Origin: a virus
Reading direction: 5' to 3' (one strand)
IMG/VR virus record: IMGVR_UViG_3300025450_000090
Span: 1-29,469 of that record
Length of the DNA stretch: 29,469 nt
The stretch's first letter is position 1; each line of letters starts with the position of its first letter. The notes below the pieces were generated by a model. The model did not search any database. It was not told where the DNA came from and worked only from the letters and a program-made list of their open reading frames with translations. Shown in pieces: positions 1-23,770 of this stretch. Both the position numbers and the translations under genes were made by a program.

Positions 1-188
1 TCTAATACCGCTTCAATTTCTTGCAGTTGATTAAAGCGTTGTTCTGTTTCGCCTGGCAAATTGCTCAAGGCCTTTTCAACATTACCACGAATTTTAACGT
101 CAGCTTTAGCTGCATTAAGTTCGCCTTCATAATAATCAATAAAGGCTGGGATTTCTCCCAAATCTGCTACTATTCGATTATACCACAT
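1..188 (-). CDS. uvsY: Probable UvsY-like recombination mediator, C-terminus cut off by window edge
   Basis: An open frame starts with ATG at 188 and runs without a stop to base 1, so only the first 62 or so residues are present. The segment is strongly helical and charged. It begins MWYNRIVADL and includes a LPGETEQRFNQLQEIEA stretch that I associate from memory with UvsY of marine T4-like phages. In T4, UvsY helps UvsX displace gp32 from single-stranded DNA. Its start overlaps the stop of the upstream radical SAM gene by 11 nt, so it is the next gene of the same minus-strand operon that carries uvsX. The family call rests on this short segment and the context, so it is moderate. Confidence 0.55.
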   Translation of the reverse strand, partial: MWYNRIVADLGEIPAFIDYYEGELNAAKADVKIRGNVEKALSNLPGETEQRFNQLQEIEAVL

Positions 189-1425
189 TGTCTAATACCT
201 CAGTAAGCCATGGAAAAGTTGTACGCCATGATTGGTTTCTACGTCTGTCTAATTCATCTAAGTATGTACGCAATTTAACTATTTCATTTAGATTTTTGTC
301 TGCAGATGTAACCTGCGACTTTATACCTGCCATGTATTTCTTTGCTTCTTCCAGCGACCAATCACCAGTGGGCATGGCCGACAGTATAGCGTCAAAATGC
401 TGTGCAAAATAATTCCTACCAAAGATGTCGGGATTCAAATAGGACGGTTCTGTTACTGTCATAAAATATTGTCCAATTTTTCTTGTTTGCCTCTGTTGGT
501 TAACATACTTAATTAATTCAACTGTCGACGGAATTGAAAGTGCCGATAGAGTTTGATTTACATTTAACGTAATCCAACGCTCACTGACTAAAAATTCAAA
601 ATTTTTGCGCCACTGCTCTAAATCAAGTCCATGTCTAATATACTCTTGCTCTGCACCCCAACAATCAATGCTGGCAGTTAAATCAAATCTCTTAATTTTT
701 CTTTTACTTACTAAATCTTTAATTCTGTAAATTTGCTGTTTAAACTTCTCTGGATCTATCATTAGGTTACTTACAATGTTAAATTCCAGATCTGCATTAA
801 CACGATTATACAAGAAATCTAAACAAATGTCAAATTGTTGTTGATAAAATGGTTCCCCACCTAATATATGTAATCTGCGTATGGTTGAATAATTATCATC
901 CATCCATTGCCAAAACTTTTCGGTTATCTCGCTGAATCTATTGTGTTTTGTTGTGTAGTTGTCAATTACCAACCCATTCTTTTCAAATCGTCCAAACTTT
1001 TTATTTTCGTGTTGTATTTTACTACTGAATACATCTGAACAATAGATACAGCTCATATTACACACGTTGTCAAAATATACTTCAACAATCCTGGGAGTCA
1101 CAGTAACAGCATGTGGGTCATGGTCTAATTCTGGCGGAGTTAAATCCGGAATCTGTAGATGTAACATACGATCACTTGATCCACCTGCGTCTTCAATTTT
1201 ACGACAGTACTCGCATCCACCTGCAGGCCACTGGCCATCGAGCATGAGTTCTCTATCGGCAATCTTTTTTGGTGTGTTATGAAACGATTTAAAATCGTCT
1301 ACATCAAAGTCAGTTTTGCCAACCCTATGGCAACTATTAGTTGTGCCATTGTATAGATAAACCGTACTCCAAGTCCATTTAAGTTGGCAGGCGGTTTCTG
1401 TTTTAATTGGAAAATACTTATTCAT
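178..1425 (-). CDS. Radical SAM protein with N-terminal twitch/SPASM-like domain (paralogue A)
   Basis: A 415-residue protein. The radical SAM [4Fe-4S] motif CNMSCIYC is at C122/C126/C129, followed by the SAM-contacting LGGEPF strand. Ahead of the core, C13, C32, C71 and C74 form a C-x18-C...C-x2-C set that probably holds an auxiliary cluster. This matches proteins with an N-terminal twitch domain, a permuted relative of the usual C-terminal SPASM domain. The C-terminus carries a LDELDRRRN motif also seen in its paralogues. Such enzymes use a 5'-deoxyadenosyl radical; the substrate here is unknown. The start overlaps the previous gene by 8 nt, implying translational coupling. The fold and family are secure; a peptide, nucleotide or sugar substrate cannot be chosen from sequence. 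Confidence 0.85.
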   Translation of the reverse strand: MNKYFPIKTETACQLKWTWSTVYLYNGTTNSCHRVGKTDFDVDDFKSFHNTPKKIADRELMLDGQWPAGGCEYCRKIEDAGGSSDRMLHLQIPDLTPPELDHDPHAVTVTPRIVEVYFDNVCNMSCIYCSDVFSSKIQHENKKFGRFEKNGLVIDNYTTKHNRFSEITEKFWQWMDDNYSTIRRLHILGGEPFYQQQFDICLDFLYNRVNADLEFNIVSNLMIDPEKFKQQIYRIKDLVSKRKIKRFDLTASIDCWGAEQEYIRHGLDLEQWRKNFEFLVSERWITLNVNQTLSALSIPSTVELIKYVNQQRQTRKIGQYFMTVTEPSYLNPDIFGRNYFAQHFDAILSAMPTGDWSLEEAKKYMAGIKSQVTSADKNLNEIVKLRTYLDELDRRRNQSWRTTFPWLTEVLDNVV

Positions 1426-2533
1426 TGATCCAGTTGATAAAATGATTGGGGAATATTGATAAATTTATATTTCTACGGTGAGCAAATTCATTTACGTATG
1501 CTTTTAGTTTTGTTCGTTGTTCTACAGTTGGCTCTACTTGTAGAGTTTGCTCAACTCCTGTTAATTTGGAATACAAATCTTTACTAACAGGGTCCAGTAC
1601 GCTGGCACTTAGATAATCTGGATCTGTACATAAATTGACAATATCTCGGGCGGTACCAAACTCTTGTCGGAATTGGTCGAGCCCGTGGATAGTTAAATTA
1701 CTAACCACTGTACAAAATCTATAATTAAATCTTTTTTGTATTAATTCTAAATTACTTAAAAAATTGGCCCAGGTATTTCCGTAACGGTTAAACTCGTAAA
1801 ATTTATCTGTATTCTCAGCACTGATTGTAAATGTCACTGTGTCAGGCAAGGTATCTAATATTCGTTCTAATCTTTTTGTATCGACACCGAGTCCAGTGAA
1901 TATATCCACAGGGCCATGTAAACTATCAACTAACTCGGCCAGGCCATTGTATAAGAACGGCTCTCCACCAGTAATTTCAATTTGCTGGGCTGTTTTAATA
2001 TTACGCAACTCGTCAACAATTAACTGATAGCTGTCGCTGGACTTAATTGCTCGTTGCCCTAACTTTAGCACAATCTTGTCATTGTTATTGATACGATAGC
2101 GTTCCTCGTCTAAATAAGGGCCGTTGGTGTCAATATCACGCAACCAGGCTGTACTATATTGTTTACAACAATAGCTACAGGTTAAATTACAATCACTGCC
2201 TAAATTAATGTGTAGTGTAGTAGGATCTGCTGTTGTGTGAGTCTGCTGGTCAGACCCCATTGATGTTCTACGACTTGGTAGGCCAGCACGTTCGGCACGC
2301 CAACAAGTATCTTCGCAACTGGCCACCGGAAGACCGTTGAGCATCTGCTCACGTTCTTTTTGTAGGGTAGGAGTATTAAATAGTTGCCCAGGATTAGATC
2401 GTAGCCAGGCTAAATCAATTTTTTCAGGAGTAGCCGCACAGCAAGAAGCCATAGAGCGGCGTTCGGGCTCTATGGTCAACCACCAAAACTTTTGAGAACA
2501 ATAATACTGATTCTCAATAATCGTCTTCGACAT
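1418..2533 (-). CDS. Radical SAM protein with N-terminal twitch/SPASM-like domain (paralogue B)
   Basis: A 371-residue paralogue of the neighbouring gene. The radical SAM motif CNLTCSYC is at C115/C119/C122, with one extra adjacent cysteine (C123). The GGEPF motif follows in EITGGEPFLYNG. N-terminal auxiliary cysteines are C12, C31, C32, C73 and C77. The last pair has three rather than two residues between cysteines, and C31/C32 are adjacent, so cluster ligation may differ from paralogue A. The C-terminal end has the family-like EFAHRRN motif. It overlaps the 76-residue upstream gene by 20 nt and the downstream paralogue by 8 nt. The two proteins are diverged, so they probably act on different substrates or steps rather than being a recent duplication. 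The substrate is unknown. Confidence 0.83.
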   Translation of the reverse strand: MSKTIIENQYYCSQKFWWLTIEPERRSMASCCAATPEKIDLAWLRSNPGQLFNTPTLQKEREQMLNGLPVASCEDTCWRAERAGLPSRRTSMGSDQQTHTTADPTTLHINLGSDCNLTCSYCCKQYSTAWLRDIDTNGPYLDEERYRINNNDKIVLKLGQRAIKSSDSYQLIVDELRNIKTAQQIEITGGEPFLYNGLAELVDSLHGPVDIFTGLGVDTKRLERILDTLPDTVTFTISAENTDKFYEFNRYGNTWANFLSNLELIQKRFNYRFCTVVSNLTIHGLDQFRQEFGTARDIVNLCTDPDYLSASVLDPVSKDLYSKLTGVEQTLQVEPTVEQRTKLKAYVNEFAHRRNINLSIFPNHFINWINE

Positions 2534-2744
2534 CCTCTTCTTCGTCTTCGTCCTCTGATGTATACTCTTTCATAGCACGTTTTAATATGCTATCAGTAGT
2601 ACCAAACTCTTTGAGTTCCTGGTCGCCTAACATATCAACCATAACACTCATTAAGTTATCAGCGGCTTCTTGACGGTCCTTTTGAGGAATATATTGTTTT
2701 AAGATTATATATACTTCGCTTAATACGTCAACATCGATACTCAT
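2514..2744 (-). CDS. Small acidic protein downstream of uvsX, function unknown
   Basis: A 76-residue protein with a helical N-terminal two thirds (VLSEVYIILKQYIPQKDR and onward) and a very acidic tail made almost only of Glu and Asp after residue 62. Its start overlaps the uvsX stop by 4 nt, so it is very likely co-translated with the recombinase. I recall similar small proteins beside uvsX in marine T4-like phages, so it is probably a conserved core companion, not part of the radical SAM cargo. An acidic tail of this kind could contact a DNA-binding protein or mimic DNA, but that is inference. No catalytic motif is visible. It is too long and lacks the small-residue core expected of a typical modified-peptide precursor. 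Confidence 0.7.
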   Translation of the reverse strand: MSIDVDVLSEVYIILKQYIPQKDRQEAADNLMSVMVDMLGDQELKEFGTTDSILKRAMKEYTSEDEDEEEDVEDDY

Positions 2745-3856
2745 TCTGTAACTTCCTCTTTTTTAGATTTTTTAACAGATGGTGTCGCTTCTTCGATTTC
2801 TTCAACTACTTCTTCCACTGCGTCTTTGTGTGGATTGTTTACAAAATCGGCCATGATTTTATCCAATGAACTGTCTTCATTACGTTCCCATGCTTTACGG
2901 AACTGTTTAATAACAGTACCATCTGCCAGAGTGTATTTAAGACTATTTCCATCTTTTTGCAACAACCCCTTGCCTTCAAACAAGTCTACCAAACCTGAGT
3001 ATGGATTCATACCTGTTTCGTAAGGAATTTTAATTTGTACTGATTCAAAAGGTTTAGCATAGCGTGTTTTCATAATTTTACAAGCGGCACGAATACCTTT
3101 AACTTCTGAAATCTTATTACCTTCGTCGTCCTCTTTTAACTTTAATTTACGCATAGCTACAACAATACTGGAAGCGTAGATAAAGCCCTGTCCACCTGAG
3201 ATCTTATCATCAGGATCAAACATGTCTTGACTTGCATAGGTGTGGTTTGTACAGATTAAACCAATATTTAAACTACCAAACATATTTACACAGTTACGAA
3301 CAAGTGCTGTAAGTGCTTTAGGCTTACGACCCATGTCACCTTTTAAGTCACCTGCTTCGAACTGATTAACATCTGTTGGAGTAAGCATCATACCTAACGA
3401 GTCTAATACAAATAAAACCTTGGGACGTTGATCTTCTGGCAATGCTTTATATTCTTTAGTAAAGTCATTAATAAGTTTAGCAACGTCGTCGATCATTGCC
3501 ACGTTAAGTTTAAGCAATTTGTCCTCAGAAGTGTCAACCCCAAGTGCTTTTAACCATGGCTCATCAAGTGCGTTTTCTGTATCGACTAAAATAACATAAA
3601 TGCCTTGTTCTTGTGCATTCTTAATTAAGTTACCTGAACAAATAAATGATTTACCTGCGCCAGACTCTCCAGCAAATACAGTAACTTTACCGAGCGGAAC
3701 ACCTTTGTGAAAGTCGCCGCTGATTAGATAGTTAAGAGCATAGTTGTTTGTTGAGATCCAGTCAGTTGGATCTGTAAATCCTACGCTAATGCCATCAATG
3801 CTTTTAGTGATACTTTTGCGAAACTTTGATACGTCAAATGGTTTAGTAATTGCCAT
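2741..3856 (-). CDS. uvsX: UvsX, RecA-like recombinase
   Basis: A 371-residue RecA/RAD51-superfamily ATPase that forms filaments on single-stranded DNA and drives strand exchange for recombination-dependent replication and repair. Walker A is GESGAGKS at residues 63-70. Walker B is VLFVLDSLG at about 147-155. The VDTENALDEPW segment corresponds to the catalytic Glu region, and an ISGGQGFIYASS stretch fits the DNA-binding loop. Length is close to T4 UvsX (about 390 residues). A good ribosome-binding site (AAGGAAAT) precedes ATG 3856. The C-terminus is Lys/Glu-rich, which is common in this family. It sits in the middle of the operon with radical SAM genes on both sides, an unusual setting for a core replication gene. 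Confidence 0.95.
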   Translation of the reverse strand: MAITKPFDVSKFRKSITKSIDGISVGFTDPTDWISTNNYALNYLISGDFHKGVPLGKVTVFAGESGAGKSFICSGNLIKNAQEQGIYVILVDTENALDEPWLKALGVDTSEDKLLKLNVAMIDDVAKLINDFTKEYKALPEDQRPKVLFVLDSLGMMLTPTDVNQFEAGDLKGDMGRKPKALTALVRNCVNMFGSLNIGLICTNHTYASQDMFDPDDKISGGQGFIYASSIVVAMRKLKLKEDDEGNKISEVKGIRAACKIMKTRYAKPFESVQIKIPYETGMNPYSGLVDLFEGKGLLQKDGNSLKYTLADGTVIKQFRKAWERNEDSSLDKIMADFVNNPHKDAVEEVVEEIEEATPSVKKSKKEEVTE

Positions 3857-3858
3857 GA

Positions 3859-5016
3859 TTAATTTCCTTCTTTAAGTTTATATAATTCTGTAAAAATTTT
3901 ACTGCTATCTAAATTACGTCTTGCATCTATCTCCGACAAACGTTGCCAAAACGTTTTCATATCTTTAGTAAAAGGACTACGAATATGTGCTAACAAATTT
4001 CTGTATCCATCCTCTAATAAGAATCCGGGTTTATCTGCAATACGTTTATTCAATTTTTCTTCAACTAAGTTTAGCACAGATTCTGGTAAATGTCTACAGT
4101 CAATCCACTCAGGTTCCACGATTGTGGTTAAAACAAAAGCGTTTGGGTGAAAATCTTGTGCCATAAAATAGTCGATACAATCGAAAACAGAAAAAGTATT
4201 GAGTATACACCAAACCATATTAAATGTAATCTTGTGTGGCAGTTGTTTGATTGTTTCTAAATTTTTTAGAAAATCCTGCCAAGAACTACCATAGCGTGTG
4301 TATTCAAATTCTTTATCTAAATTTTCTATGCTCACAGTCCAGTGTACATTTTTAAATTGGCAAAGCAACTCAAGTACATTGGTGTCTGTGGAACTTAAAT
4401 TAGTGTTTATCCTAATATTGACCTCAGGATTTTTTTCTAATAGGATTTCTAATAATTGCTCGTTCTCTTTAATAAGCATAGGTTCGCCACCGGCCAGATA
4501 AACATTTTTAATTTGGTGTGCGTTATTAAAAATATATTCTTTTAATTGTTTGAATTTTTCATCTGGAACTCGATCTATCTTTACACCTAACTCGCTGGCC
4601 CATTTACTGCTAAACACAGGAAAACAATAAACGCAGGCAAAGTTACAGGTATTGCGCCAACGTACATCAATTTGATTTAGATTAAAGTTGGTAGGATCGT
4701 CGTATAGCGTTGGATCGACTGATCTAAGTTCTTTCATATAATAAATTCTACTGCTAACAATATCGTGTGATGTTTTATTTTCTTCTAAATTATAACAGTA
4801 TCCGCAACTTGTAGGTTTTTCGCGATTTATTATTTGTTGTTTGATCTTTGTGTTTATTTCGCCAGTCATTACTTGTTCGATCGTATTTTCGCGAACGTTG
4901 CCAATCACATCGTAAGCACAGATACAATTTTTAACATTACCATCGGGCATGACTACAAAGCCGGTCCAGGGCAACGGGCAAAATGCTTTATTAGTTAAAA
5001 TATCTTTAGGTGTCAT
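3859..5016 (-). CDS. Radical SAM protein with N-terminal twitch/SPASM-like domain (paralogue C)
   Basis: A 385-residue protein, the most canonical of the four paralogues. The N-terminal domain starts AFCPLPWTGFVVMPDGNVKN and has cysteines C13, C31, C33, C71 and C74. That pattern of C-x-LPW, a PDG turn, then C-x-C and CGYC looks like a SPASM/twitch cluster domain moved to the N-terminus. The radical SAM motif CNFACVYC lies at C124/C128/C131, and GGEPM follows in VYLAGGEPMLI. The C-terminal LSEIDARRN motif matches the other paralogues. The gene ends 2 nt before uvsX, with the uvsX ribosome-binding site inside its 3' end, and overlaps the upstream dehydrogenase by 4 nt. The enzyme class is secure; the substrate is not known. 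Confidence 0.87.
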   Translation of the reverse strand: MTPKDILTNKAFCPLPWTGFVVMPDGNVKNCICAYDVIGNVRENTIEQVMTGEINTKIKQQIINREKPTSCGYCYNLEENKTSHDIVSSRIYYMKELRSVDPTLYDDPTNFNLNQIDVRWRNTCNFACVYCFPVFSSKWASELGVKIDRVPDEKFKQLKEYIFNNAHQIKNVYLAGGEPMLIKENEQLLEILLEKNPEVNIRINTNLSSTDTNVLELLCQFKNVHWTVSIENLDKEFEYTRYGSSWQDFLKNLETIKQLPHKITFNMVWCILNTFSVFDCIDYFMAQDFHPNAFVLTTIVEPEWIDCRHLPESVLNLVEEKLNKRIADKPGFLLEDGYRNLLAHIRSPFTKDMKTFWQRLSEIDARRNLDSSKIFTELYKLKEGN

Positions 5017-5522
5017 TGTGATCCTAAACTTATATCAGGAATAGTTAATCCGTTTGCTTCGGCCATTTTAAAAACACTAACTAACACTCTTGCCCATGTT
5101 GCTGGATCGGCACCTGGTATATTATCGTGTGTTGCTACTTGTCCAGGACGTACTAATGTGATACGTGGGCCATCGATGGTTCTTAATTGTTTTACCGCTT
5201 CTTCAAGTGCCACTTTTTGTAAACGGTATTCATCTAAACTATTAGTAGATGTATGTTGAGTTAACATAGTGCTAATAACCATAATATGTTTGTTGGTTTT
5301 GTGCCAACGTCGAGCCACTTCAAATAATAATTCAGTCTGTGCGAACCCGGCCTGTGCATTGTTAATAAACATATCACAAGGTTCGATCATGTCTGCCGCT
5401 TTAGGAATATTACGTATATTATTACCCTCGCGGCGACTAATACCGATTATTTCGTTTCCCCAGTAGGCTTCGGCAAGTGCAGCGCCAATGCCGGCTGTGT
5501 GTCCTGTAATTGCTATTTTCAT
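5013..5522 (-). CDS. Short-chain dehydrogenase/reductase (SDR)
   Basis: A 169-residue NAD(P)-dependent oxidoreductase with a Rossmann fold. Visible motifs are the cofactor loop TGHTAGIG (residues 6-13), the NNA strand end at 54-56, a catalytic-region Ser (S84) and the active-site YRLQK (Y99, K103) with the usual Y-x3-K spacing. At 169 residues it is shorter than most SDRs (about 250), so the substrate-binding region is reduced. It overlaps both neighbours by 4 nt (ATGA), between a radical SAM gene and a small 2OG-oxygenase-like fragment. An oxidation or reduction step in the same pathway as those genes is likely but inferred. The substrate is unknown. Confidence 0.85.
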   Translation of the reverse strand: MKIAITGHTAGIGAALAEAYWGNEIIGISRREGNNIRNIPKAADMIEPCDMFINNAQAGFAQTELLFEVARRWHKTNKHIMVISTMLTQHTSTNSLDEYRLQKVALEEAVKQLRTIDGPRITLVRPGQVATHDNIPGADPATWARVLVSVFKMAEANGLTIPDISLGSQ

Positions 5523-5713
5523 TTTAGTAGGTGTATTGGATCATTTTTAAATGTAAAACTTGCTATGACTCTTGGTGTGATTGCAGGATCTATTTTAATT
5601 ACTGAATGTGCTAATCTTGAATTAAACACTACCGGTTTTGATAAATTATGTAATTCTGCTATTAATTCTAAATCTATGTCCTGGCATTCTAATTCTAAAA
5701 AAGGTTTTAACAT
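5519..5713 (-). CDS. 64-residue protein resembling the C-terminal half of a 2OG-Fe(II) dioxygenase
   Basis: A short ORF fused into the operon by overlaps on both sides (TAATG with the upstream gene, ATGA with the SDR). The segment VVFNSRLAHSVIKIDPAI then PRVIASFTF looks like the last strands of a double-stranded beta-helix dioxygenase. H36 would be the distal iron ligand, and R48, 12 residues later, the 2-oxoglutarate-binding Arg. The full 2OG oxygenase at 8323-8895 has the same H...R spacing of 12. The H-x-D half of the active site is absent, so on its own it should not bind iron normally. It may be a decayed remnant, a partner subunit, or an unrelated small protein. The homology is my visual alignment only. 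Confidence 0.5.
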   Translation of the reverse strand: MLKPFLELECQDIDLELIAELHNLSKPVVFNSRLAHSVIKIDPAITPRVIASFTFKNDPIHLLK

Positions 5714-6594
5714 TATATATTTCTTAACCGCTTTTGTTCTTGTATATAGTTGTTAATACTGGTCTGATCTGTATTGCCAACTTCTAATACTGCTGGCTCC
5801 TTAAGATAAGCATAGCCATGATCAATACCGTGCTCTTGAGCAAATGCCTGGATGGCAGGTAAATTATTGACATTTAATACGCTGACAGTTGTCCATAAAT
5901 TTAATTTAACAGGCATAGTTTTATATTGCATTAGGTTTTTATAAAAGGTGTCCCAACGAATAGGCCAGCGCATAAATTCAAATACTTCGCCAATGCCGTC
6001 ACAGCTTGCGGTAACTGTAACTTCAATACCACGCTCGGCAATGGCAGTTAATTCTTCTAATACTATATTACAATTTGTATTAAGTCTAAGTGTGCGAAGA
6101 TTGGGTGGTAAGTTGTCTAATATCTTTTTATAATTTTTACTGTAACTTGGCTCGCCACCGTTGATATCTAAGTGGCGAATACGTTCTTGCGGTAATGCCC
6201 AATATCCACGACTATTGTCTACTATGGGAAACGTTTTGCCATGCAATGAACCAATGCGTGTACTACACTCTGGACTACAGGTTTGACAGGCTGCATTACA
6301 AACATTATCTAAAACCCCACCAACCTGCAGATAATCTTTTTGTGTTTCTAATGTGTCCACGGCAATAGCGTGTATTCTTATACTACTGGGAGTTTTTTGT
6401 TCAACTTCTTTACAGCGTATACATTCTGCCGGCCATGTGCCAAATTTAAAAAGTTCTTTTACATTAGCTAACCAACTACTGCCGTCCATATCTGCCAATG
6501 AGTTATAACGTGGAGCATTGACCATATGGCCGCACCGACTAACTGTGTTGTCGGGATTGAATCTTACAAAATGGTCTAATCGAGGACAGTACAT
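5713..6594 (-). CDS. Radical SAM protein with N-terminal twitch/SPASM-like domain (paralogue D, short)
   Basis: A 293-residue protein, the smallest of the four. The radical SAM motif CNAACQTC is at C99/C103/C106, with a further Cys at C110. The SAM-binding LDINGGEPSY follows. N-terminal auxiliary cysteines C3, C21, C58 and C61 keep the C-x17-C...C-x2-C pattern. Tyr in the third position of the usual CxxxCxYC core is replaced by Thr. Compared with paralogues A-C it lacks roughly 80-120 residues, mostly in the C-terminal third, but it keeps a reduced QKRLRN end. It may therefore be a minimal active form or partly degenerate. It overlaps the sulfotransferase gene by 19 nt. The substrate is unknown. 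Confidence 0.8.
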   Translation of the reverse strand: MYCPRLDHFVRFNPDNTVSRCGHMVNAPRYNSLADMDGSSWLANVKELFKFGTWPAECIRCKEVEQKTPSSIRIHAIAVDTLETQKDYLQVGGVLDNVCNAACQTCSPECSTRIGSLHGKTFPIVDNSRGYWALPQERIRHLDINGGEPSYSKNYKKILDNLPPNLRTLRLNTNCNIVLEELTAIAERGIEVTVTASCDGIGEVFEFMRWPIRWDTFYKNLMQYKTMPVKLNLWTTVSVLNVNNLPAIQAFAQEHGIDHGYAYLKEPAVLEVGNTDQTSINNYIQEQKRLRNI

Positions 6595-7193
6595 AAACCC
6601 TTGTTTCTTTGAATAACTTCTTGGTATAAGTCAGAGTATTTAACTTTTATATGTGCCAGTATCTCTGTAAATTTGGCTGTTTGTCCAACAAAGTCTTCGG
6701 TTAATACTTTATCTAACTGTAAATAATACCATAACTTATTGTTTGATTTAAAATAGTCTGTTAGTGTTTCGTCACGTGCTAATACATTCCACGTTAATTC
6801 TGTCGCGTTGCTTAGTTCGGTCCAAGGTACAATAGTAATCCAAGGATTATTAGTTTGTCTAACTAAGTTAACTAACCAATGGAACTGTAGGGCAAAATGT
6901 CTATCTAAGAACAAGTATTGATCTATCATTGTCAATGCTGTTGCACGATCCAAATGAGGATTGTTTTTTAGATAGGTTTGTACTCCACTGACATAACGTT
7001 CAAAAGGTTCACGTACATATACCTGTACCTGTGCCACCCGAGTTTGTAATTGATCTCGGGGAACTAATTCTGGATGGTCGGCTCTAAGACTGCTGGAACC
7101 ATTTTTAAATATTGGATAGATCAGCTGGCCATTCTTACCGACAAGTATTTCACACTCATCGGGAAAGAGGATGGGATCTAAATAACTCAGCAT
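6576..7193 (-). CDS. Sulfotransferase family protein (PAPS-dependent, carbohydrate type)
   Basis: A 205-residue protein with the two signatures of PAPS-binding sulfotransferases: a 5'-phosphosulfate loop PIFKNGSSSL (residues 27-36) and a 3'-phosphate motif VREPFERYVSGV (60-71), as in membrane-type carbohydrate sulfotransferases. These enzymes move sulfate from PAPS to a hydroxyl, often on a glycan. I placed the start at ATG 7193. A longer frame from TTG 7232 would translate through the gp32 terminator hairpin and is unlikely. The ATG lies 2 bases beyond the terminator U-tract with no clear ribosome-binding site, so expression may depend on read-through or a promoter I cannot see. It overlaps the next radical SAM gene by 19 nt. 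The acceptor molecule is unknown. Confidence 0.75.
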   Translation of the reverse strand: MLSYLDPILFPDECEILVGKNGQLIYPIFKNGSSSLRADHPELVPRDQLQTRVAQVQVYVREPFERYVSGVQTYLKNNPHLDRATALTMIDQYLFLDRHFALQFHWLVNLVRQTNNPWITIVPWTELSNATELTWNVLARDETLTDYFKSNNKLWYYLQLDKVLTEDFVGQTAKFTEILAHIKVKYSDLYQEVIQRNKGLCTVLD

Positions 7194-7195
7194 AG

Positions 7196-7224
7196 AAAAA
7201 GGGTAGGGACCGTAAGCCCTACCC
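7196..7224 (-). terminator. Intrinsic terminator after gp32
   Basis: On the minus strand, GGGTAGGG and its complement CCCTACCC (8 bp, 8-nt loop) are followed directly by five T residues. The hairpin begins 12 nt beyond the gp32 stop codon. T4 gene 32 is also followed by a terminator. It separates gp32 from the recombination and radical SAM operon, whose first start codon is just past the T-run. Confidence 0.85.
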
Positions 7225-7235
7225 AGACACAAGCA

Positions 7236-8210
7236 TTATTGCGTTTTACGGTTTCTGATCATTGCCAGAATGTCTTCGGCACGTTGACTGCTTGGTTTAG
7301 CTTCAGCGGCCGGAGCGGCTACTGGGGCTGTTGGAGCAGGTGTGTCATCTTCATCTGGTTCTACTACTGCGGCTGGAGCAGGTGTGCTCGTAGCTGCTGC
7401 TGGTTTAGCGTTAGGTGTATCCAAACCGTATGGTTTGTAATAAGCACCCCATTTGTCTGCATCATATGGTTGACCATCAACTGATGCTTCAAACATTTCT
7501 TTGATAACTTTAAGTTCTGTTTCGCTTGGTTGCTTTGGCAAGAAGTCTGACAAATTGTGTAAGCCAAATTCTTCAATTGCTGCAGCTTCGTCTGCTGTTA
7601 ATGCAGATTCTTTACGCGACCATGTACTGGTGTTGTAGTCTGCATAACCACCTTTGCTGGTTTTCTTGATATTAAAATCAAGACCCGCTTGGTAATCTGT
7701 TGGCAAGTTTTCCATTTCTGGATCCATTAGTGCGTTCTTGATCAAATTAAAGATCTGTGGGCTAATAACAAATCTACGAATTGGGTTTGATGGAGTCTTA
7801 TCATCGCCAAGTGGATTCTCGCGAACAAAGCCTTGGAACAAATAACTACGTTTCTTCCAATACTTACGACCCATTTCTTCTAAGTTAGGATCTTTAAACC
7901 ATGTACGCACTTCTGCTAAAATTGGACATGCTTGTCCATACATTTCAACACAAGGTACTTGTACAACCACTGGCTTCGAATCTGCTTGGCCTTTTACGCC
8001 AGCAAATGGCAGCTTGATCATTGCACGTTCAACCCAAAAGAATGAATTGCTTGCGTTACCGTCTGGTAAAAATCTTACTCTTGCTGTGGTGTTTTCTGCG
8101 ATGTTCCAGTGTGCGTAAATTGCATTATCGCCCTGGCTTTGTGATTCGCCGGTTTTACGGCCTTCTGATGCTTGTAACTTTGCTCTAATTTCTGCTAATG
8201 TCATTGCCAT
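7236..8210 (-). CDS. 32: gp32, single-stranded DNA-binding protein
   Basis: A 324-residue protein matching marine T4-like gp32 in its core: HWNIAENTTARVRFLPDG, then VPCVEMYGQACPIL and a YLFQGFVREN strand of the OB-fold. C87 and C95 lie in the region of the T4 zinc site, though spacing differs. It coats single-stranded DNA during replication, recombination and repair and works with UvsX and UvsY, encoded downstream. Residues from about 263 to 310 are a Pro/Ala/Glu/Asp-rich linker with an acidic VEPDEDDTP patch. The C-terminus (AEDILAMIRNRKTQ) is not acidic as in T4. The start is fixed by a strong AAAGGAAA ribosome-binding site. It has its own promoter and terminator. Confidence 0.88.
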   Translation of the reverse strand: MAMTLAEIRAKLQASEGRKTGESQSQGDNAIYAHWNIAENTTARVRFLPDGNASNSFFWVERAMIKLPFAGVKGQADSKPVVVQVPCVEMYGQACPILAEVRTWFKDPNLEEMGRKYWKKRSYLFQGFVRENPLGDDKTPSNPIRRFVISPQIFNLIKNALMDPEMENLPTDYQAGLDFNIKKTSKGGYADYNTSTWSRKESALTADEAAAIEEFGLHNLSDFLPKQPSETELKVIKEMFEASVDGQPYDADKWGAYYKPYGLDTPNAKPAAATSTPAPAAVVEPDEDDTPAPTAPVAAPAAEAKPSSQRAEDILAMIRNRKTQ

Positions 8211-8322: not shown

Positions 8323-8895
8323 TTACCGAACCAAATATTCGTTAAAAATAGTATAGCTGGTAAGGCGATATGAGTTTTCGGGCACTTTGTTTAATAGTCC
8401 GTGCCACTGTAATGGTTGACTGCCGTCGGGATTCAATCCGTTTAACATAACATATCCAGAATTAGGACGGAACGGAAAATCATATCTTATGTCTGTGCGG
8501 CTTTTTGAATTGTAAAACTTTGTACCTAATGTTTCGTTGTCAGCATGCCAAAATAGTTGCATGGTAGCAGGTAGATGCCCGTCTGTGTGTATAGGAACAA
8601 AAAATGTAGGTTCGTCTACCCACCAAGATGTATTAATATAGTCTGCATTGGCTACGGTGATGCCACAGGCTTCTTCAACTTGCCGATATGTATTTTTTAA
8701 TTCTTGGGTAGCTTGTTGTAGTAAAGGATTGTTACTAAAATTAATTGATCTACGTAACCACATTTCTTGCCCATCCTGATCATTCCAGGGCAAATTAATC
8801 CAGTCTTGATGTAATATTTCGTCAACCAGATCCAACGGTAGAACATCTTCTACCAAAAACAATCTGTTGGTATTGTCTACAGAAGTTATTTTCAT
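8323..8895 (-). CDS. 2OG-Fe(II) dioxygenase family protein
   Basis: A 190-residue protein with the pattern of 2-oxoglutarate/Fe(II) dioxygenases: H103-T-D105 (in VPIHTDGH), distal H165 (LQWHG) and R177 for the 2-oxoglutarate carboxylate, on a predicted double-stranded beta-helix. Such enzymes hydroxylate proteins, nucleic acids or small molecules. Many T4-like phages from water carry members of this broad group with unknown targets. It ends about 110 nt upstream of gp32 on the same strand and starts 3 nt after the 499-residue gene. It could act with the radical SAM, SDR and sulfotransferase cluster, but a promoter and terminator separate them, so this is conjecture. Confidence 0.75.
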   Translation of the reverse strand: MKITSVDNTNRLFLVEDVLPLDLVDEILHQDWINLPWNDQDGQEMWLRRSINFSNNPLLQQATQELKNTYRQVEEACGITVANADYINTSWWVDEPTFFVPIHTDGHLPATMQLFWHADNETLGTKFYNSKSRTDIRYDFPFRPNSGYVMLNGLNPDGSQPLQWHGLLNKVPENSYRLTSYTIFNEYLVR

Positions 8896-12004: not shown

Positions 12005-12532
12005 ATGTCAGACACACTACTACTAAATTCTAATTACGAGCCAATTAGTGTATTACCTTTAAGTGTTATTAATTGGCAACACGCTATCAAACTAATGTAT
12101 CTGGGCCGCGTTCACGTGCTTGAAACATACCCAAATTGGATAGTACACTCAGAACGTTTAGCCTTAAATGTTCCCAGCGTCTGCGTGACTAAAGATTACT
12201 TCCATTACAAAAAGTCTGTTAAGTTTAGCCGTTATAACTTGTACATGCGCGATTTGTTTAAATGCCAATACTGCGAAGATGTTTTTGACTACGAAGAACT
12301 AACAATCGATCATGTCGTTCCGCGAAGTGCTGGCGGCAAGACTGTCTGGACTAACTGTGTAACCAGTTGTAAGGCCTGCAATCATCATAAAGGCAGTAAA
12401 TTAATTAAACCTAAAATTGCTCCATATCGTCCCGATTATTATTCGTTGGTTAGTAAATGGAAAACAATGCCATTTACTGTCAAGGATGAAGCGTGGAACA
12501 AATATTTGGGAGTGTTAAAGGCTGTTGCCTAA
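12005..12532 (+). CDS. HNH endonuclease
   Basis: A 175-residue protein with a classic HNH nuclease core: zinc CxxC at C87/C90 (FKCQYC), the catalytic DH pair D102-H103 in IDHVVPRSAGG, N117 (WTNCVTSC) and a second zinc pair C122/C125 followed by NHHKG. The N-terminal 80 residues (LLLNSNYEPISVLPLSVINW and onward) match the usual extension of this HNH type. It is transcribed against all neighbours and sits between gp17 and a structural-type gene, as free-standing phage endonucleases often do; it might be mobile. Its 3' end overlaps the opposing gene by 4 nt. A TATAAGTA box lies just upstream at 11991-11998, but the spacing to the ATG is very short. Confidence 0.88.
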   Translation: MSDTLLLNSNYEPISVLPLSVINWQHAIKLMYLGRVHVLETYPNWIVHSERLALNVPSVCVTKDYFHYKKSVKFSRYNLYMRDLFKCQYCEDVFDYEELTIDHVVPRSAGGKTVWTNCVTSCKACNHHKGSKLIKPKIAPYRPDYYSLVSKWKTMPFTVKDEAWNKYLGVLKAVA

Positions 12533-19193: not shown

Positions 19194-22100
19194 TTAGGCT
19201 TTACCTGAAGTTGGGTTAACTAAACGAATTGGGATATAGATAAACTCGATAGCCTTAGTAGGTGCAATCGCAATATCAATATATAATTGGTTTTGTGCGA
19301 TAACATTTGGTGGATTGTTACTTGTATCACAAACTACTACATAGTCGTAAATACCACGTTTGCTTACTAAATCGTTTAAGGCATTTGAAATAACTGCGCC
19401 AACTTGATCACGTGTAATCTTATCGTTTGGCTCAAACAAGAAGCCGTTTGTTGCTGTTGATAAGAGTGTACGGATGTAGTTTACTAAGCGAGATACGTTT
19501 ACACGATCCATTGATTCTGCAATTGGATCACGTGTCTTCTGACCCCAAACAACTAAACCAGTTCCTGGTAGAATTGTAATTGGGTTAATCTTTAACTGAT
19601 ACAATGCATCACGTAGACCTTGATTTACACCAGTGCGATGGAACTCGCCTGTTTTGTAATCAACATAACCTAAGTCAGTTGCATTGTCAACTAAACCACG
19701 ACGTAAACCTGCTGGAGCAAACCATGGATATGCCAAGTTGTCGTTGTGTAAGTATGTACGCAGAGCGATGTGGCTTGGTGGAACCATGATTGTGTTACCA
19801 GACAAATCTGTGCTTAACGCACTTGGCCAGTAAACCGCGCAATATGGATCATCTGTTGGTAAGCCGTCACCGTTTGTGTCGTTACTCCAGTTGTTTAGAT
19901 CAACTACATTAGTGCTCAACGACATTGGTGTATCACCAATGATGAACGCTGTGTTTTTGCGATCGTTGTTTAGAGCAACCATGTTAGTAATCAACTCTGG
20001 GTAACCAGGTGCTGCTAACAAGCTAAATCCAAATTGATCTTCACGAATTTGTGTATTGGCTTCAACTGCGGCATTCATTGCAGAAACAATTAAATGACGT
20101 TGTGCATAGTGACCAGCATTTGGGCTACCATCATTTTTCAAGCCACTTGCTGTTACCCAAGAAGCACTTTGCAATGGTGACCAGTATGCTGCCATATCTG
20201 GAGGTGTGTTACCTGTGTTGCTACTTTGGCTGGAAACATAAATTGTTGAGCCATAGTAAACTTTATCACCGTAGTTGTATGTTGTTGTAGAGCTATAGTC
20301 GTTAACCATGAATGATTCTGCGTTGAAGTAGTTAGCTACATAACGCTTGACATTGTAACCCGAACGACGTGTGTTAAACAATAGAACACCACGTGGATAT
20401 AGTTCTGGGTTAGGTGCGTCTAAATCAACATAGTTACTGTATAGCAATGATGCTACTGGATCTTCAGTGTTAACTGCTGGATCTGTTGTACCACCGTTTG
20501 TAGTGCCGCTGGTTAAGCCGCTTAATGCGCCATCCCAACGTGCATCAGCAAATACAATACCATTAACGCTTAGTGCATCGCTGTTGTCAATTGCTACCCA
20601 AGTTGTACCGTTCCAACGGTTCATCTTAGGCCAATTTTCTAAATCGCTTGTGTCTAACCACAAGTCACCTGGTACTAACGGACTTGTTCCGTTGCTTTGT
20701 GTAGTTGGTGCTGTGAATTCAACAATAACACCATTGGCGTCTGTACGAGTTAAGTTATAACCACGTGCATCTGCACTTAATGTTTTGTAGCCAACCCATT
20801 TTGTACCTGTGTTGATCATAACATCAACAATAGTAGGATCGCTGTAGTACCATAATGTACCATCTGCAGGATCTGCTACTGGTAAATCAATGTTAGGTTC
20901 ATACATTAATGCTGAGAAGCCAGATAAAATACGAACTACGTTTGTAGAATCGTTACCACCATAGCTTCTAACACCTTCAACTGCTGATGTGAAACCAGCC
21001 AAGTATGGCAAGTTTGGTTGACCAGCAATCTTAGACATAATAATTGTACCACCAGCCAAGTGTTTAACTGTAATAGTACCTGTACTGCTGTTTACTGAAG
21101 CAGTAATGTAGCCTTGTAAACCGCTACCAGGTGTACCAACAGCAGCTTGGATGCCTGATACAAAAGAAGCAGCAGTTGCAGCAGAAACTGTTACAGTTAC
21201 AGTAGTAAATGTATTTGTTCCTGGTGTTGTTGCTTTTAATGTAAATGTACCAGTGCTTGAACCAAATCCTGGAGTTACACCAGTAATAGCCAATTCACCA
21301 GGCATGCTTCTAACCATTGGTGTAAAGCCAGCAATACCTAAATTGTCTGTTGTTGCATCATATGTGTTTTGGTCTTCGTATACAAATAATGTACCAACAC
21401 CAATTTGTGAACCACCACCAACGTCTAAATCGCTAATGGCATTTCCTTCACTTGTATCTGCTACAGCAGCCTGTGTAGTCCATGTATCAGTAGTTGCGTT
21501 GTATTTCTTAAAGACTAAGTTTGAGCCACCGCCCAATTTACCAGACTTTAGCCATACTGCGCCGTTGGCTTGTGGTGCTGAATCGTTCATTGTCCAAGCA
21601 GGTACACCAGCATAGTTGCTGAATTGAATCTGTGGAGCATAGAATCTGTAGGTACCATTGGATACGAATTGTGCTGGGGTAATAATACCAGCTTGTACCC
21701 ATAAAGAGTTTGAAACTACGGTTGCTGCTTCAACGATTGATAATACACCAGTACCACTGCTGGCAAGATCGTTAGCAAACAAACATAGCTTGCTGTCTCT
21801 CTTAGCAGCCTTAACACCTGCAATCGCAAGACCGTTGATACTGCTTATAACAGAGTCAATGTTTGTAGTTGTTAAAGTAATTGTAGTTCCGTTGATACTA
21901 CCGCCAGTTGCTACAGTATTTGTAAATGTAGGATTTGAAACTGAGCCGGTTGCCACTGGCAAATCGTTTTGCCATTCTTTAGAACCTACTAATTTCCATG
22001 CATTGTCTGAACCTTTGTGATATACTCTATTGTTGTATGCACCAGCTGTGTTAGGTGTTGTAACAATAGCATATTGTCCAACTGCACCAATGCTGTTCTT

Positions 22101-22673
22101 TGGCTTTGGTTCTGCTGCTAATGTAATTGCTGTACCATTGTAAATGGCTGTAGCATCTGCTGTGTCTACGTCACCTGCAGATGTAATTAAAATTGGCTGT
22201 TGGTTTGTAAAGCTCTGTGTATCAGCTGACCACTCATAGATACCCCATGTAGTGTCTGCTAAATCTAACCAATATGTACCGTCCATAACTTTACCTGTTG
22301 GACGTACACTTGTTCCGTGTAAAGCGTTTAGATCGATGTCAGCACGAATAGCATATAGTTGGTTGCCCAAGCCCAATGCTGAGTAAGCTGCCATTAAACC
22401 ATATTCGTTTAGTTCATTACCATGCAATGGTGTGCCAGCCGAACTTTGTAAGAATGTTGGATAACCAAGTGCCGTGATCAAATCACGTTGACTTGTAAAT
22501 ATTTGCAGTTTGTCTGCGTTAGCTTTTGTTGTACCTGTAGCTACTGTACCACTTGGATTTAATTTGTCTTGTGCTGTAGCAAGAACGACAAGAGGTACTG
22601 TACCAATTGCTGATGATACGTACTGGCTCTGGTCTGTTACTGTTATGCTTACGCCTGGGGATACTAATGCCAT
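19194..22673 (-). CDS. 18: gp18, contractile tail sheath protein (oversized)
   Basis: A 1159-residue sheath; T4 gp18 is 659. The N-terminus MALVSPGVSITVTDQSQYVS and the C-terminal region are canonical. Signature segments include LRRGLVDNATDLGYVDYKTG, then NPITILPGTGLVVWGQKTR and SRLVNYIRTLLSTATNGFLF. The sheath surrounds the gp19 tube and contracts to drive injection. The extra length is in the middle (about 125-850): several beta-rich inserts with a G-x-x-WL...W motif near 131-160, 371-402, 604-630 and 668-695, a Thr-rich beta domain at about 460-550, and a carbohydrate-binding-like module at 794-835. These would be displayed on the tail surface. A strong AAAGGAA ribosome-binding site and a perfect late octamer precede it. 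Confidence 0.92.
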   Translation of the reverse strand: MALVSPGVSITVTDQSQYVSSAIGTVPLVVLATAQDKLNPSGTVATGTTKANADKLQIFTSQRDLITALGYPTFLQSSAGTPLHGNELNEYGLMAAYSALGLGNQLYAIRADIDLNALHGTSVRPTGKVMDGTYWLDLADTTWGIYEWSADTQSFTNQQPILITSAGDVDTADATAIYNGTAITLAAEPKPKNSIGAVGQYAIVTTPNTAGAYNNRVYHKGSDNAWKLVGSKEWQNDLPVATGSVSNPTFTNTVATGGSINGTTITLTTTNIDSVISSINGLAIAGVKAAKRDSKLCLFANDLASSGTGVLSIVEAATVVSNSLWVQAGIITPAQFVSNGTYRFYAPQIQFSNYAGVPAWTMNDSAPQANGAVWLKSGKLGGGSNLVFKKYNATTDTWTTQAAVADTSEGNAISDLDVGGGSQIGVGTLFVYEDQNTYDATTDNLGIAGFTPMVRSMPGELAITGVTPGFGSSTGTFTLKATTPGTNTFTTVTVTVSAATAASFVSGIQAAVGTPGSGLQGYITASVNSSTGTITVKHLAGGTIIMSKIAGQPNLPYLAGFTSAVEGVRSYGGNDSTNVVRILSGFSALMYEPNIDLPVADPADGTLWYYSDPTIVDVMINTGTKWVGYKTLSADARGYNLTRTDANGVIVEFTAPTTQSNGTSPLVPGDLWLDTSDLENWPKMNRWNGTTWVAIDNSDALSVNGIVFADARWDGALSGLTSGTTNGGTTDPAVNTEDPVASLLYSNYVDLDAPNPELYPRGVLLFNTRRSGYNVKRYVANYFNAESFMVNDYSSTTTYNYGDKVYYGSTIYVSSQSSNTGNTPPDMAAYWSPLQSASWVTASGLKNDGSPNAGHYAQRHLIVSAMNAAVEANTQIREDQFGFSLLAAPGYPELITNMVALNNDRKNTAFIIGDTPMSLSTNVVDLNNWSNDTNGDGLPTDDPYCAVYWPSALSTDLSGNTIMVPPSHIALRTYLHNDNLAYPWFAPAGLRRGLVDNATDLGYVDYKTGEFHRTGVNQGLRDALYQLKINPITILPGTGLVVWGQKTRDPIAESMDRVNVSRLVNYIRTLLSTATNGFLFEPNDKITRDQVGAVISNALNDLVSKRGIYDYVVVCDTSNNPPNVIAQNQLYIDIAIAPTKAIEFIYIPIRLVNPTSGKA
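20169..20294 (-). other. CBM5/12-like module inside the sheath gene
   Basis: Residues 794-835 of gp18 read TTTYNYGDKVYYGSTIYVSS followed by SSNTGNTPPDMAAYW. This has the aromatic, GD-x-V, Y-x-G-x-x-Y, G-x-x-P and final W pattern of small chitin/cellulose-binding (CBM5/12-type) modules. It is a visual match only. If right, the tail surface carries a glycan-binding domain. Confidence 0.5.
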
Positions 22674-22773: not shown

Positions 22774-23124
22774 ATGTCAGAACGTAAATTATGCCCTACT
22801 TGTAACCAAAGACCTGTTGCTATTAATTATCGCAAAGGATTGGTAACGCACTACCGATCACATTGTGACGTATGTAATCGAAAAGGCAAGAGAGTACGTA
22901 TAGCACCACCAGCCTGGCATCGAGCTGGATATACTAAAAAGACCGTTTGCGAAAGATGTGGGTTTAAAGCAAAACACCCAGAACAACTGGGTGTATTTTA
23001 TGTAGACGGAAATTTAAAAAACAACAACTGGCTTAATTTAAAAACTATATGTTTAAACTGTCAGCAAGAGGTTTATAAATCCCGGTTGAGCTGGAAGCCG
23101 GCGCCGCTTGCACCAGATTTTTAA
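22774..23124 (+). CDS. Zinc-ribbon/HNH-like protein
   Basis: A 116-residue protein from ATG 22774; a longer frame from TTG 22747 is less likely. It has four CxxC pairs: C7/C10, C31/C34, C59/C62 and C93/C96. The end of the third and the fourth frame an HNH-like core, FYVDGNLKNNNWLNLKTICL. I recall this family in marine T4-like phages near gp1 and gp18. The first catalytic His of a normal HNH (HHIDG) appears as Tyr/Val here, and the final His of the motif is Gln, so nuclease activity may be lost. It is transcribed against its neighbours and its 3' end overlaps the gp1 kinase gene by 80 bp. Confidence 0.75.
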   Translation: MSERKLCPTCNQRPVAINYRKGLVTHYRSHCDVCNRKGKRVRIAPPAWHRAGYTKKTVCERCGFKAKHPEQLGVFYVDGNLKNNNWLNLKTICLNCQQEVYKSRLSWKPAPLAPDF

Positions 23125-23716
23125 TGTTAGTATACAGCTCTTCAATAGTACCGTTGTTGTCAATTTCATAATCAAACTCTGTACCAATCCAAGCAGTTTC
23201 GCTAACGTGTACATCAGGATATGCTGTTTTCATATTATCAAAGCCACCAAGATTTGATTCAACTGCTAAGTCGTACCACTCGGGTAACGGGCCACGTTTA
23301 ACCCAGACAATTCGTCCGCCAGCACGACGAATACTTTGAATTTCGTTGGGGAATCTAACATCGCTAATAACAGTATTATCGCTACGACGACTTAGGCGAG
23401 CTTCTAAAGCAGCAATCCAAATATCATCATGGAACGCTTTACGACAAACTTCGGTGCCCCAATATTGTAAGACCCAACGTGGGGTTAGGCCAGGCATGTT
23501 GAGTCGATTAGCCCACCATGGATCCACTTGTTCGCGCCAGGCCCTGGCTTCGGGAGTGCGGCCTTCGAGTAGCTCTCGGTCCCAGCCAAATACAGCGGCC
23601 ACTGCATCTTTAAGTGTGCCAGCAAAGCTATCACGTCTATAGCCATGGAAACCAACCAAGTAGTCAGCAATAGTGTCTTTACCTGAACCAATAAACCCGC
23701 AAACGCCGATGATCAT
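23045..23716 (-). CDS. 1: gp1-like deoxynucleoside monophosphate kinase
   Basis: A 223-residue kinase that phosphorylates dNMPs to dNDPs for phage DNA synthesis. The P-loop GFIGSGKDT is at residues 7-15, with a YLVGFHGYRRDSFAG segment after it. VISDVRFPNEIQSIRRAGG is the characteristic Asp-Arg-Phe-Pro motif of phage dNMP kinases. The start at ATG 23716 puts the P-loop near the N-terminus as usual. A longer frame from 23770 would run through the terminator hairpin. The C-terminal tail (QAAPASSSTGIYKPLADSLNI) is encoded in the region overlapping the opposing gene, so it may be a late addition. No strong ribosome-binding site is visible. Confidence 0.85.
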   Translation of the reverse strand: MIIGVCGFIGSGKDTIADYLVGFHGYRRDSFAGTLKDAVAAVFGWDRELLEGRTPEARAWREQVDPWWANRLNMPGLTPRWVLQYWGTEVCRKAFHDDIWIAALEARLSRRSDNTVISDVRFPNEIQSIRRAGGRIVWVKRGPLPEWYDLAVESNLGGFDNMKTAYPDVHVSETAWIGTEFDYEIDNNGTIEELYTNIKNLVQAAPASSSTGIYKPLADSLNI

Positions 23717-23741
23717 AAAAAAGCCCTCTGTTATAAGGGCT
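23717..23741 (-). terminator. Intrinsic terminator between gp13 and gp1, probably bidirectional
   Basis: AGCCCT and AGGGCT form a 6-bp stem with an 8-nt loop. On the minus strand it is followed by a run of Ts that ends directly at the gp1 ATG. On the plus strand TATTTTT follows, so it might work both ways. Confidence 0.7.
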
Positions 23742-23770
23742 ATTTTTACATAATTTTTGAATAATGTCAA

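Follow-up and report, generated by a model that had tools for sequence, protein, structure and literature searches.

A conserved cassette with N-twitch radical SAM enzymes between gp32 and uvsX of large uncultured phages

The subject of this analysis is an operon with four genes for radical S-adenosylmethionine (SAM) enzymes, A to D, in the 29,469-base virus record IMGVR_UViG_3300025450_000090 of IMG/VR, which at its full length is called the window below. The operon lies entirely on the minus strand and runs from position 8210 down to position 3 in the order gp32, a sulfotransferase-like gene, D, a remnant of 64 aa, a gene related to the short-chain dehydrogenases/reductases (SDR), C, uvsX, a gene for a 76-aa protein, B, A and the start of uvsY, with overlaps of 1–20 bases or spacings of 2–3 bases between adjacent genes. 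A sequence-only reading of this DNA had already placed the radical SAM genes correctly (A at 178..1425, B at 1418..2533, C at 3859..5016 and D at 5713..6594), all on the minus strand and overlapping or nearly touching their neighbors; it had also named uvsX as their flank and uvsY as the probable next gene. Both identities were confirmed: the uvsX recombinase (2741..3856) matches the UvsX-like family phrog_97 (1.4e-68), and the uvsY-like recombination mediator (3..188) is cut by the contig end, its full-length copy in the near-identical sibling L163 matching the UvsY-like family phrog_231 (4.1e-15). On the other side the block is bounded by a gp32-type single-strand DNA binding protein (7236..8210; phrog_1192, 9.5e-67). 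The window UvsX shares 59–70% identity with its counterparts in the 40 best phage records; the closest come from phages Phosso, Atu_ph07, XbC2, CBB and GAP32, which have records of 359–490 kb. Three further genes of the operon had gone without mention in the sequence-only reading, namely the sulfotransferase-like gene (6576..7232, start probably near 7193), the short SDR-like oxidoreductase gene (5013..5522; 169 aa) and the internally deleted remnant of a gene resembling iron/2-oxoglutarate (Fe/2OG) oxygenases (5519..5713), which was identified by alignment with its relatives. As detailed below, the four enzymes are cargo in the recombination block of a jumbo-type phage and not recombination genes, and the window shows only part of a larger picture, namely a conserved cassette that occupies a cargo slot in large uncultured phages, with enzymes drawn from a phage-expanded N-twitch radical SAM family.

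Searches of NCBIfam identified NF033640 (N_Twi_rSAM) as the best model for all four proteins, with scores of 246 bits for A (6e-73), 246 bits for C (5.4e-73), 156 bits for B (1.4e-45) and 133 bits for D (1.6e-38). The curated cut-off of this model is 170 bits for the whole protein; A and C exceed it, while B and D fall below and are therefore termed only N-twitch-like here, despite the fact that NF033640 is by far the best NCBIfam model for both. The profile search of the twitch family that the sequence-only reading had called for agrees with it on the best model of every protein, but places only two of them above the cut-off. Its description of four diverged enzymes holds: B, C and D are 26%, 23% and 27% identical to A, the four form separate deep clades, GGEP is found in all of them, and seven cysteines (CxxxCxxC and the upstream set C-x17/18-C ... 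C-x2/3-C) are invariant in the aligned orthologs (12/12 for C, 10/10 for D, 8/8 for A and 6/6 for B). The radical SAM core model PF04055 (gathering threshold 29.5 bits) is passed by C (64.1 bits) and B (36.7 bits), while A and D are not listed at E 0.01, A reaching 15.4 bits in a genome scan. Among the solved structures, the D profile retrieved only SkfB, over the core.

The region upstream of the core matches the SPASM model PF13186 in C (29.2 bits, gathering threshold 21.5) at residues 13–74, i.e. before the core at residues 122–268; A, B and D are not listed for this model at E 0.01, and in a set of 17 diverse N-twitch proteins, 11 reach E ≤0.1 with it (best 9e-13), the position of the match being known only for C. 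Published sources are cited here by PubMed Central number. The first four cysteines of SPASM/twitch domains follow the motif CX9-15GX4C ... CX2C (PMC6231123), which fits C (C13-x12-G26-x4-C31, C71xxC74) as well as A (C13-x13-G27-x4-C32, C71xxC74), and also the D orthologs, at least 90% of which carry the motif glycine at G16, the D of the window itself having N16. According to PMC9012708, the SPASM/twitch auxiliary domain sits C-terminal to the radical SAM core, which is the reverse of the order in all four enzymes, where the cysteine set precedes the core. The prediction that the N-terminal domain is a SPASM/twitch domain in a permuted domain order is well supported by these motifs and profiles, and the four invariant cysteines may be expected to serve as ligands of an auxiliary cluster in this domain.

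Loci related to the window were collected by scans with uvsX, D and C, each locus set comprising the best 80 of at least 556–599 confirmed stretches. The 80 uvsX loci were sampled regardless of radical SAM genes, and 70 of them contain both gp32 and uvsX. Between these two genes, 8/70 hold the sulfotransferase-like gene, D, the SDR gene and C (five of them with an oxygenase-like gene in addition), three hold the SDR gene alone, one holds the sulfotransferase-like gene alone and 58 hold none of these genes. A second set of 113 loci with gp32 and uvsX was found through D or C, so that the share of cassettes in it is not a population frequency; all 113 have C and D, and 109 carry the sulfotransferase-like gene, D, SDR and C together. 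The exceptions are one locus without SDR and three without a recognized sulfotransferase-like gene (L190, L195 and L196), in which D matches with only 98 bits. Several loci are stretches of one contig or near-copies; grouping by exact 300-mers reduces the 113 loci to 84 groups and the 70 loci to 67, and all four cassette genes are present in 82/84 groups of the second set. C and D therefore belong to one heritable cassette, composed of the sulfotransferase-like gene, D, an optional oxygenase-like gene, SDR and C, between gp32 and uvsX.

The partner genes suggest what type of chemistry the cassette may perform. The predicted structure of the sulfotransferase-like protein (predicted local distance difference test score, pLDDT, 92) retrieved 13 chains with Z ≥5, all of which are heparan-type sulfotransferases (best Z 5.7); the profile of its family, compared with the solved structures, found nothing at E 1. 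The protein carries conserved KNGSSS- and RDPxxRxxSG-type motifs, and among 41 aligned rows K29, N30, R60, R65 and G69 are invariant and S33, S34, P62 and S68 nearly so. We take these motifs to be the 5'-phosphosulfate loop and the 3'-phosphate motif of sulfotransferases that use 3'-phosphoadenosine 5'-phosphosulfate. The SDR-like protein shows weak SDR matches, with Y99 and K103 invariant in 12/12 sequences; the ortholog from L010 passes adh_short (26.9 bits, gathering threshold 26.6), and the window copy has no adh_short match at E 0.01. The oxygenase-like protein has 157–189 aa in seven aligned relatives versus 64 aa in the window. Both the HxD...P and the F-N/H-S/A...H patterns occur in 36 of 48 rows, the window and its siblings included, and HxD...H is presumably the metal triad of Fe/2OG oxygenases; a representative from L033 has no Pfam or PHROG match, and the family profile found only two chance-level rows among the solved structures. 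In two siblings (L084:7843-8148 and L085:4275-4580), whose DNA is 99.5–99.9% identical to the window on both sides of the gene, a different and less deleted copy is found, whose second histidine has been substituted as well. As the two deletion states come from separate assemblies, genuine decay is a better explanation than a fault of assembly. No recognized oxygenase-like gene is present in 84 of the 117 loci with the sulfotransferase-like gene, D, SDR and C, which suggests that the oxygenase step is optional.

The interval that holds the cassette (slot 1) is one of two cargo slots, the second being the interval between uvsX and uvsY (slot 2); in most of the 70 loci sampled through uvsX, each of the two is either empty or holds other cargo, in line with the suggestion of the sequence-only reading that cargo was inserted repeatedly into the recombination block. 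No open reading frame (ORF) longer than about 110 aa separates gp32 from uvsX in 42/70 loci. Slot 2 is filled by A and B as further paralogs in the window, and it contains A, B or C-like genes in 14/70 and 33/92 loci, nine of them with B followed by A, as in the window. Other radical SAM proteins are also found among the cargo of these slots in relatives; one of them, in slot 2 of L005 (2630-4180), shows a sub-threshold match to a B12-binding domain. In L079 (1080-2261) an amidinotransferase-like protein, recognized by eye and without a Pfam match, lies between gp32 and uvsX. The small acidic 76-aa protein encoded after uvsX (2514..2744) is present with and without cargo, including in cassette-free loci and in Phosso, and has no family match in NCBIfam, Pfam or PHROG searches.

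A functional tie to recombination, proposed in the sequence-only reading as one explanation of this arrangement, was rejected as the main interpretation, as the cassette is absent from 62/70 uvsX-sampled loci, gp32 (confirmed by profile) directly precedes uvsX in the cultured relatives Phosso, Atu_ph07 and GAP32, and paralogs are found elsewhere: in contig G001 a distance of about 160 kb separates the A-type genes from uvsX, and G002 and G003 have arrays of N-twitch genes away from it. Scattering of these genes without any link to recombination genes holds in part: it applies to A and to one gene of G001 that is related to C (37% identical to it and not beside uvsX), but not to the orthologs of C and D, which adjoin gp32 or uvsX in the mapped loci. 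The same distribution bears on the idea that the pathway alters phage DNA or nucleotides, yielding a hypermodified base or base glycosylation linked to the replication and recombination genes. Apart from the placement among gp32, uvsX and uvsY, it could draw on a deoxynucleotide monophosphate kinase domain encoded in the window at 23045-23770 (PF21448) and on a thymidylate-synthase-family gene in G002 and in the Vibrio phage K566. But the latter gene is found in only two of five records, is common in bacteria and cannot decide the matter, the cassette is missing beside uvsX in the three cultured relatives and in most of the loci sampled through uvsX, and N-twitch arrays occur elsewhere; with no positive evidence for DNA modification, which the sequence-only reading had also raised, we regard this explanation as quite improbable.

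The evolutionary analysis is consistent with a module of its own. Among 51 dereplicated loci, reduced from 70 full loci, the pairwise distances of D, SDR and C correlate mutually with r of 0.56–0.62, while D and uvsX show 0.40, C and uvsX 0.46, and gp32 and uvsX 0.85. These values would fit a module whose members stay together and are sometimes exchanged between flanks; they fit poorly for SDR with uvsX (0.61) and for the sulfotransferase-like gene, which correlates with gp32 (0.67) and uvsX (0.66) and only weakly with D (0.28). The median ratio of nonsynonymous to synonymous substitution rates (dN/dS), calculated only from pairs with dS of 0.2–1.2, is 0.091 for C, 0.093 for D, 0.119 for SDR, 0.195 for the sulfotransferase-like gene and 0.207 for the oxygenase-like gene, compared with 0.131 for gp32 and 0.067 for uvsX; A (0.084) and B (0.147) are based on 8 pairs each. 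Selection on C and D is thus about as strong as on gp32, and the ratios indicate that the cassette is conserved under purifying selection. In a tree of 55 rows, made by a quick method and with several long branches flagged, C, D and B each form one side of a fully supported branch, and the A rows group with the two A-type genes of G001.

Matches to NF033640 at E 0.001 were found in 21 of the 25 larger contigs searched, and exceed the cut-off in 20. Counting matches above 110 bits, G002 (357 kb) has 12, G001 (261 kb) 11, G003 (183 kb) 12 and G004 (148 kb) 8; the next two contigs, G005 and G006, have one and none, and G008, G023 and G024 have none. The statement of the sequence-only reading that four such enzymes are unusual therefore needs qualification, with 8–12 in each of the four largest related contigs. 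High copy number alone is not new either, because the T4-like contig TARA_ERS488813_N000010, in which 12 such radical SAM genes were counted, has been published (PMC5332604); it resembles G001, G002 and G004 in combining many radical SAM genes with an A-type Fe-S carrier (found in these three of the five records tested), but differs in that the accessible description mentions no cassette or N-twitch order. G002 and G003 contain tandem arrays of five (L238:7203-13750) and six (L239:6575-15961) N-twitch genes, with a carbamoyltransferase near both (Pfam-tested in G002, by eye in G003) and a protein with a sub-threshold arginine-deiminase match in the array region of G003. SGNH-like and amidinotransferase-like genes, recognized by eye, also adjoin these arrays. 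Among 50,697 phage records searched at 1e-5, A, B and D have no match and C matches only the Vibrio phages K566 and K567. Predicted viral structures add full-length matches to C (template modeling score, TM, up to 0.81), nearly all of them radical SAM proteins of uncultured phages, and a looser one in Vibrio phage KVP40 (TMq 0.57). One scan of bacteria with patterns derived from the C orthologs detected relatives of C at two loci, both in metagenome-assembled genomes of Bdellovibrionota. At these loci (L252:9176-14143 and L253:4247-13091), N-twitch-type genes are clustered with other radical SAM genes, and L252 shares with the phage arrays a YDEP...IDGDN protein (35% identity), whose family profile found nothing at E 1 among the solved structures.

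What the cassette might do is suggested by its composition and by two characterized systems. BtrN, the 2-deoxy-scyllo-inosamine dehydrogenase, is a twitch radical SAM enzyme that oxidizes an aminocyclitol and has a four-cysteine auxiliary cluster (PMC9012708); it is the best solved match of the isolated N-terminal domain of C, with all four cysteines aligned, the difference being that its twitch domain is C-terminal and not N-terminal as in C. AprD4, a radical SAM diol dehydratase, acts on a sugar together with the reductase AprD3 (PMC5461906), a pairing that resembles the radical SAM gene beside a reductase-type gene seen here, except that the cassette has two radical SAM enzymes and a sulfotransferase-like gene; AprD4 itself appears in the fold list of C (6fd2, Z 8.2, rank 47), which reflects fold similarity only. 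We propose that the cassette tailors an unusual, possibly sulfated, sugar; this is the best of several readings and is not established, and we would rate it a little short of an even chance. Each radical SAM enzyme would cleave SAM at the CxxxCxxC cluster, the resulting 5'-deoxyadenosyl radical would abstract a hydrogen from the carbinol carbon of a sugar-type substrate, and the four-cysteine cluster of the permuted twitch domain would take up the electron. The product would be a ketone if the reaction resembles that of BtrN, or a keto-deoxy sugar if it resembles that of AprD4. In analogy to AprD3, the partner of AprD4, the SDR would then reduce the ketone, an intact oxygenase would hydroxylate the product and the sulfotransferase would add sulfate. 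Finally, a heptose-type nucleotidyltransferase and nearby glycosyltransferases could activate the sugar and transfer it onto a virion or cell-surface glycan, which in its tailored form may alter receptors or recognition by defense systems.

Several results weigh against this proposal. B departs from the SPASM/twitch motif, with no glycine at the motif position in the window copy and Cx3C instead of Cx2C. The match of the N-terminal domain of C to BtrN is marginal (E 0.036, and 0.13 for a second match; two further, unrelated rows have E 0.34 and 0.88), and although the whole C profile recovers BtrN with whole-chain E of 6e-4 and 9e-4, the best stretch (12–86 on BtrN 168–248) included, no single stretch passed alone, so a special kinship of this domain to BtrN is not supported. 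The sulfotransferase match is weak (Z 5.7 is under the tool's own level of 8, and the Foldseek E is 0.15), that protein has no Pfam or PHROG match, and the oxygenase-like copy of the window, lacking the HxD half, is a remnant. The AlphaFold model of C (pLDDT 79.6, predicted template modeling score 0.79; weakest at residues 83–92, 120–127 and 133–136, around the core cysteine loop) has SuiB (Z 11.3), BlsE (10.8) and MoaA (10.2) as its best solved matches; its whole-model matches include the peptide maturases SuiB and SkfB as well as anSME, and peptide maturases match it as well as sugar enzymes do.

These matches raise the alternative that the substrate of the enzymes is a ribosomal peptide or a protein, of the virion or of the host, with tyrosine or a modified side chain as the target of the sulfotransferase-like protein. 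SPASM/twitch domains are also known from sactisynthases and further enzymes that modify peptides (PMC6231123). Core-fold similarity to peptide maturases is, however, found for many radical SAM enzymes and has no discriminating power; moreover, the overlapping or nearly touching cassette genes leave no gap in the window operon for a precursor-peptide gene, the 76-aa ORF occurs without the cassette and so is not its precursor, and the SPASM-like nature of the N-terminal residues leaves no room there for a leader-binding domain. On balance we consider peptide or protein modification unlikely, though it deserves to be kept in view.

Returning to sugar tailoring, its genomic context is suggestive in some records and negative in others. 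Past uvsY (6019-7489), the sibling L163, 99.9% identical to the window over positions 1–5507, has first a small ORF, then a methyltransferase gene and finally a fusion of a cytidylyltransferase with a mannose-6-phosphate-isomerase cupin, which matches phrog_7878, heptose 1-P adenylyltransferase (6e-26); L131 (12510-14728) likewise has a heptose-type nucleotidyltransferase/cupin fusion and, in addition, a glycosyltransferase of family 8 (GT8) downstream of uvsY. In the cultured Vibrio phage K566 (L254:8962-17749), two GT8 genes and a GT4-like gene below its cut-off lie interspersed among four N-twitch matches (202, 154, 193 and 142 bits). All four GT8 genes of G003, G004 and K566 lie ≤3 kb from an N-twitch gene (rotation P 0.0015). 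As for the new modification pathway that the sequence-only reading had envisaged, a sugar accords better with the neighboring genes than DNA does. Here, too, there is counterevidence. The GT8 proximity test was post hoc, made after K566 had been seen, and two of its four genes belong to the post-uvsY block; no GT8 gene was found in G001 or G002; and a search for GT2 in eight records gave one hit above the cut-off, with its nearest N-twitch gene about 6.5 kb away, and one below. Among the loci that extend more than 3.5 kb past uvsY, the nucleotidyltransferase/GT8 block found there is as frequent with the cassette (16/25) as without it (17/26; Fisher P 1). Enrichment of epimerase and DegT genes near N-twitch genes was tested by rotation in G001–G003, leaving out G004 (no other listed gene), G005 and G006, the N-twitch rows below 110 bits, the second piece of the DegT gene of G001, and epimerase rows that resemble the cassette SDR (G003:9602 and G004:109088) or are alike in size and score (G002:220296). 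Counted by locus, 6/18 lie within 10 kb versus 3.95 expected (P 0.17), with P 0.18 at 5 kb and a borderline 9/18 (P 0.045) at 15 kb; counted by gene, the figures are 6/35 versus 7.31 expected (P 0.69), with P 0.54 at 5 kb and 0.15 at 15 kb.

The K566 island (VPK566_0302-0314) is reported to replace an ancestral anti-defense island and to bring in a glycosyltransferase and lipid A genes (PMC12028318); the term "radical SAM" is absent from the accessible text of that paper. This replacement would also suit a role in making or destroying a small signaling or antiviral molecule, by viperin-like nucleotide chemistry or as counter-defense, and C does match the viperin model with 38.7 bits. The cut-off of that model is 180 bits, though, only the core of C matches, MoaA scores slightly higher (40.2), and a sulfotransferase-like partner is not expected for such a function, which makes this third alternative a very unlikely one.

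If the cassette does tailor a sugar, it could be part of a broader scheme, in which one lineage of large, uncultured phages has made permuted-twitch radical SAM enzymes into a toolbox, with up to about a dozen paralogs per genome, that builds and varies new sulfated, deoxy or epimerized surface sugars of phage or host. The gp32-uvsX cassette would then form the conserved core, while the variable part would consist of the uvsX-uvsY slot together with the tandem arrays. We regard this extension as doubtful at present; were it true, radical chemistry would serve receptor or defense evasion, and some phages would run multi-step radical-based biosynthesis during infection. Among known arrangements, the host-recognition cluster of pelagimyophages (PMC7029224) is similar in having radical SAM cassettes as variable cargo, with glycosyltransferases in the region, but as compared by placement it lies among structural genes and not between gp32 and uvsX. 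The K566 island shares the interleaving of N-twitch genes with glycosyltransferases, and its nearest homolog of C is 25% identical over 65% of C. The description of NF033640, a family that agrees with all four proteins in best model and in the cysteine set before CxxxCxxC, names no function, substrate or cassette, nor do the searched libraries give any function for N-twitch radical SAM enzymes, yet large phage contigs carry up to 12 copies. A literature search by title, beginning of the abstract and terms, with most subscription journals and all preprints outside its coverage, found no paper describing this cassette. The reductase-like and sulfotransferase-like partners in a conserved cassette make the substrate class testable, and with cultured Vibrio phages carrying N-twitch genes at hand, K566 offers a tractable system.

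Other features of the window lie outside the operon. Upstream of gp32, a minus-strand gene (8323..8895) may encode a second Fe/2OG oxygenase, judging by an H.D...H...R pattern recognized by eye only; its product has no Pfam or PHROG match. Homologs are found in L009, L024, L051 and L244, in the last two directly after an N-twitch gene. An HNH endonuclease gene at 12005-12532, on the opposite strand, adjoins terL and is present in many relatives as well, and a large tail sheath protein of 1159 aa is encoded at 19194-22673 (phrog_10581).

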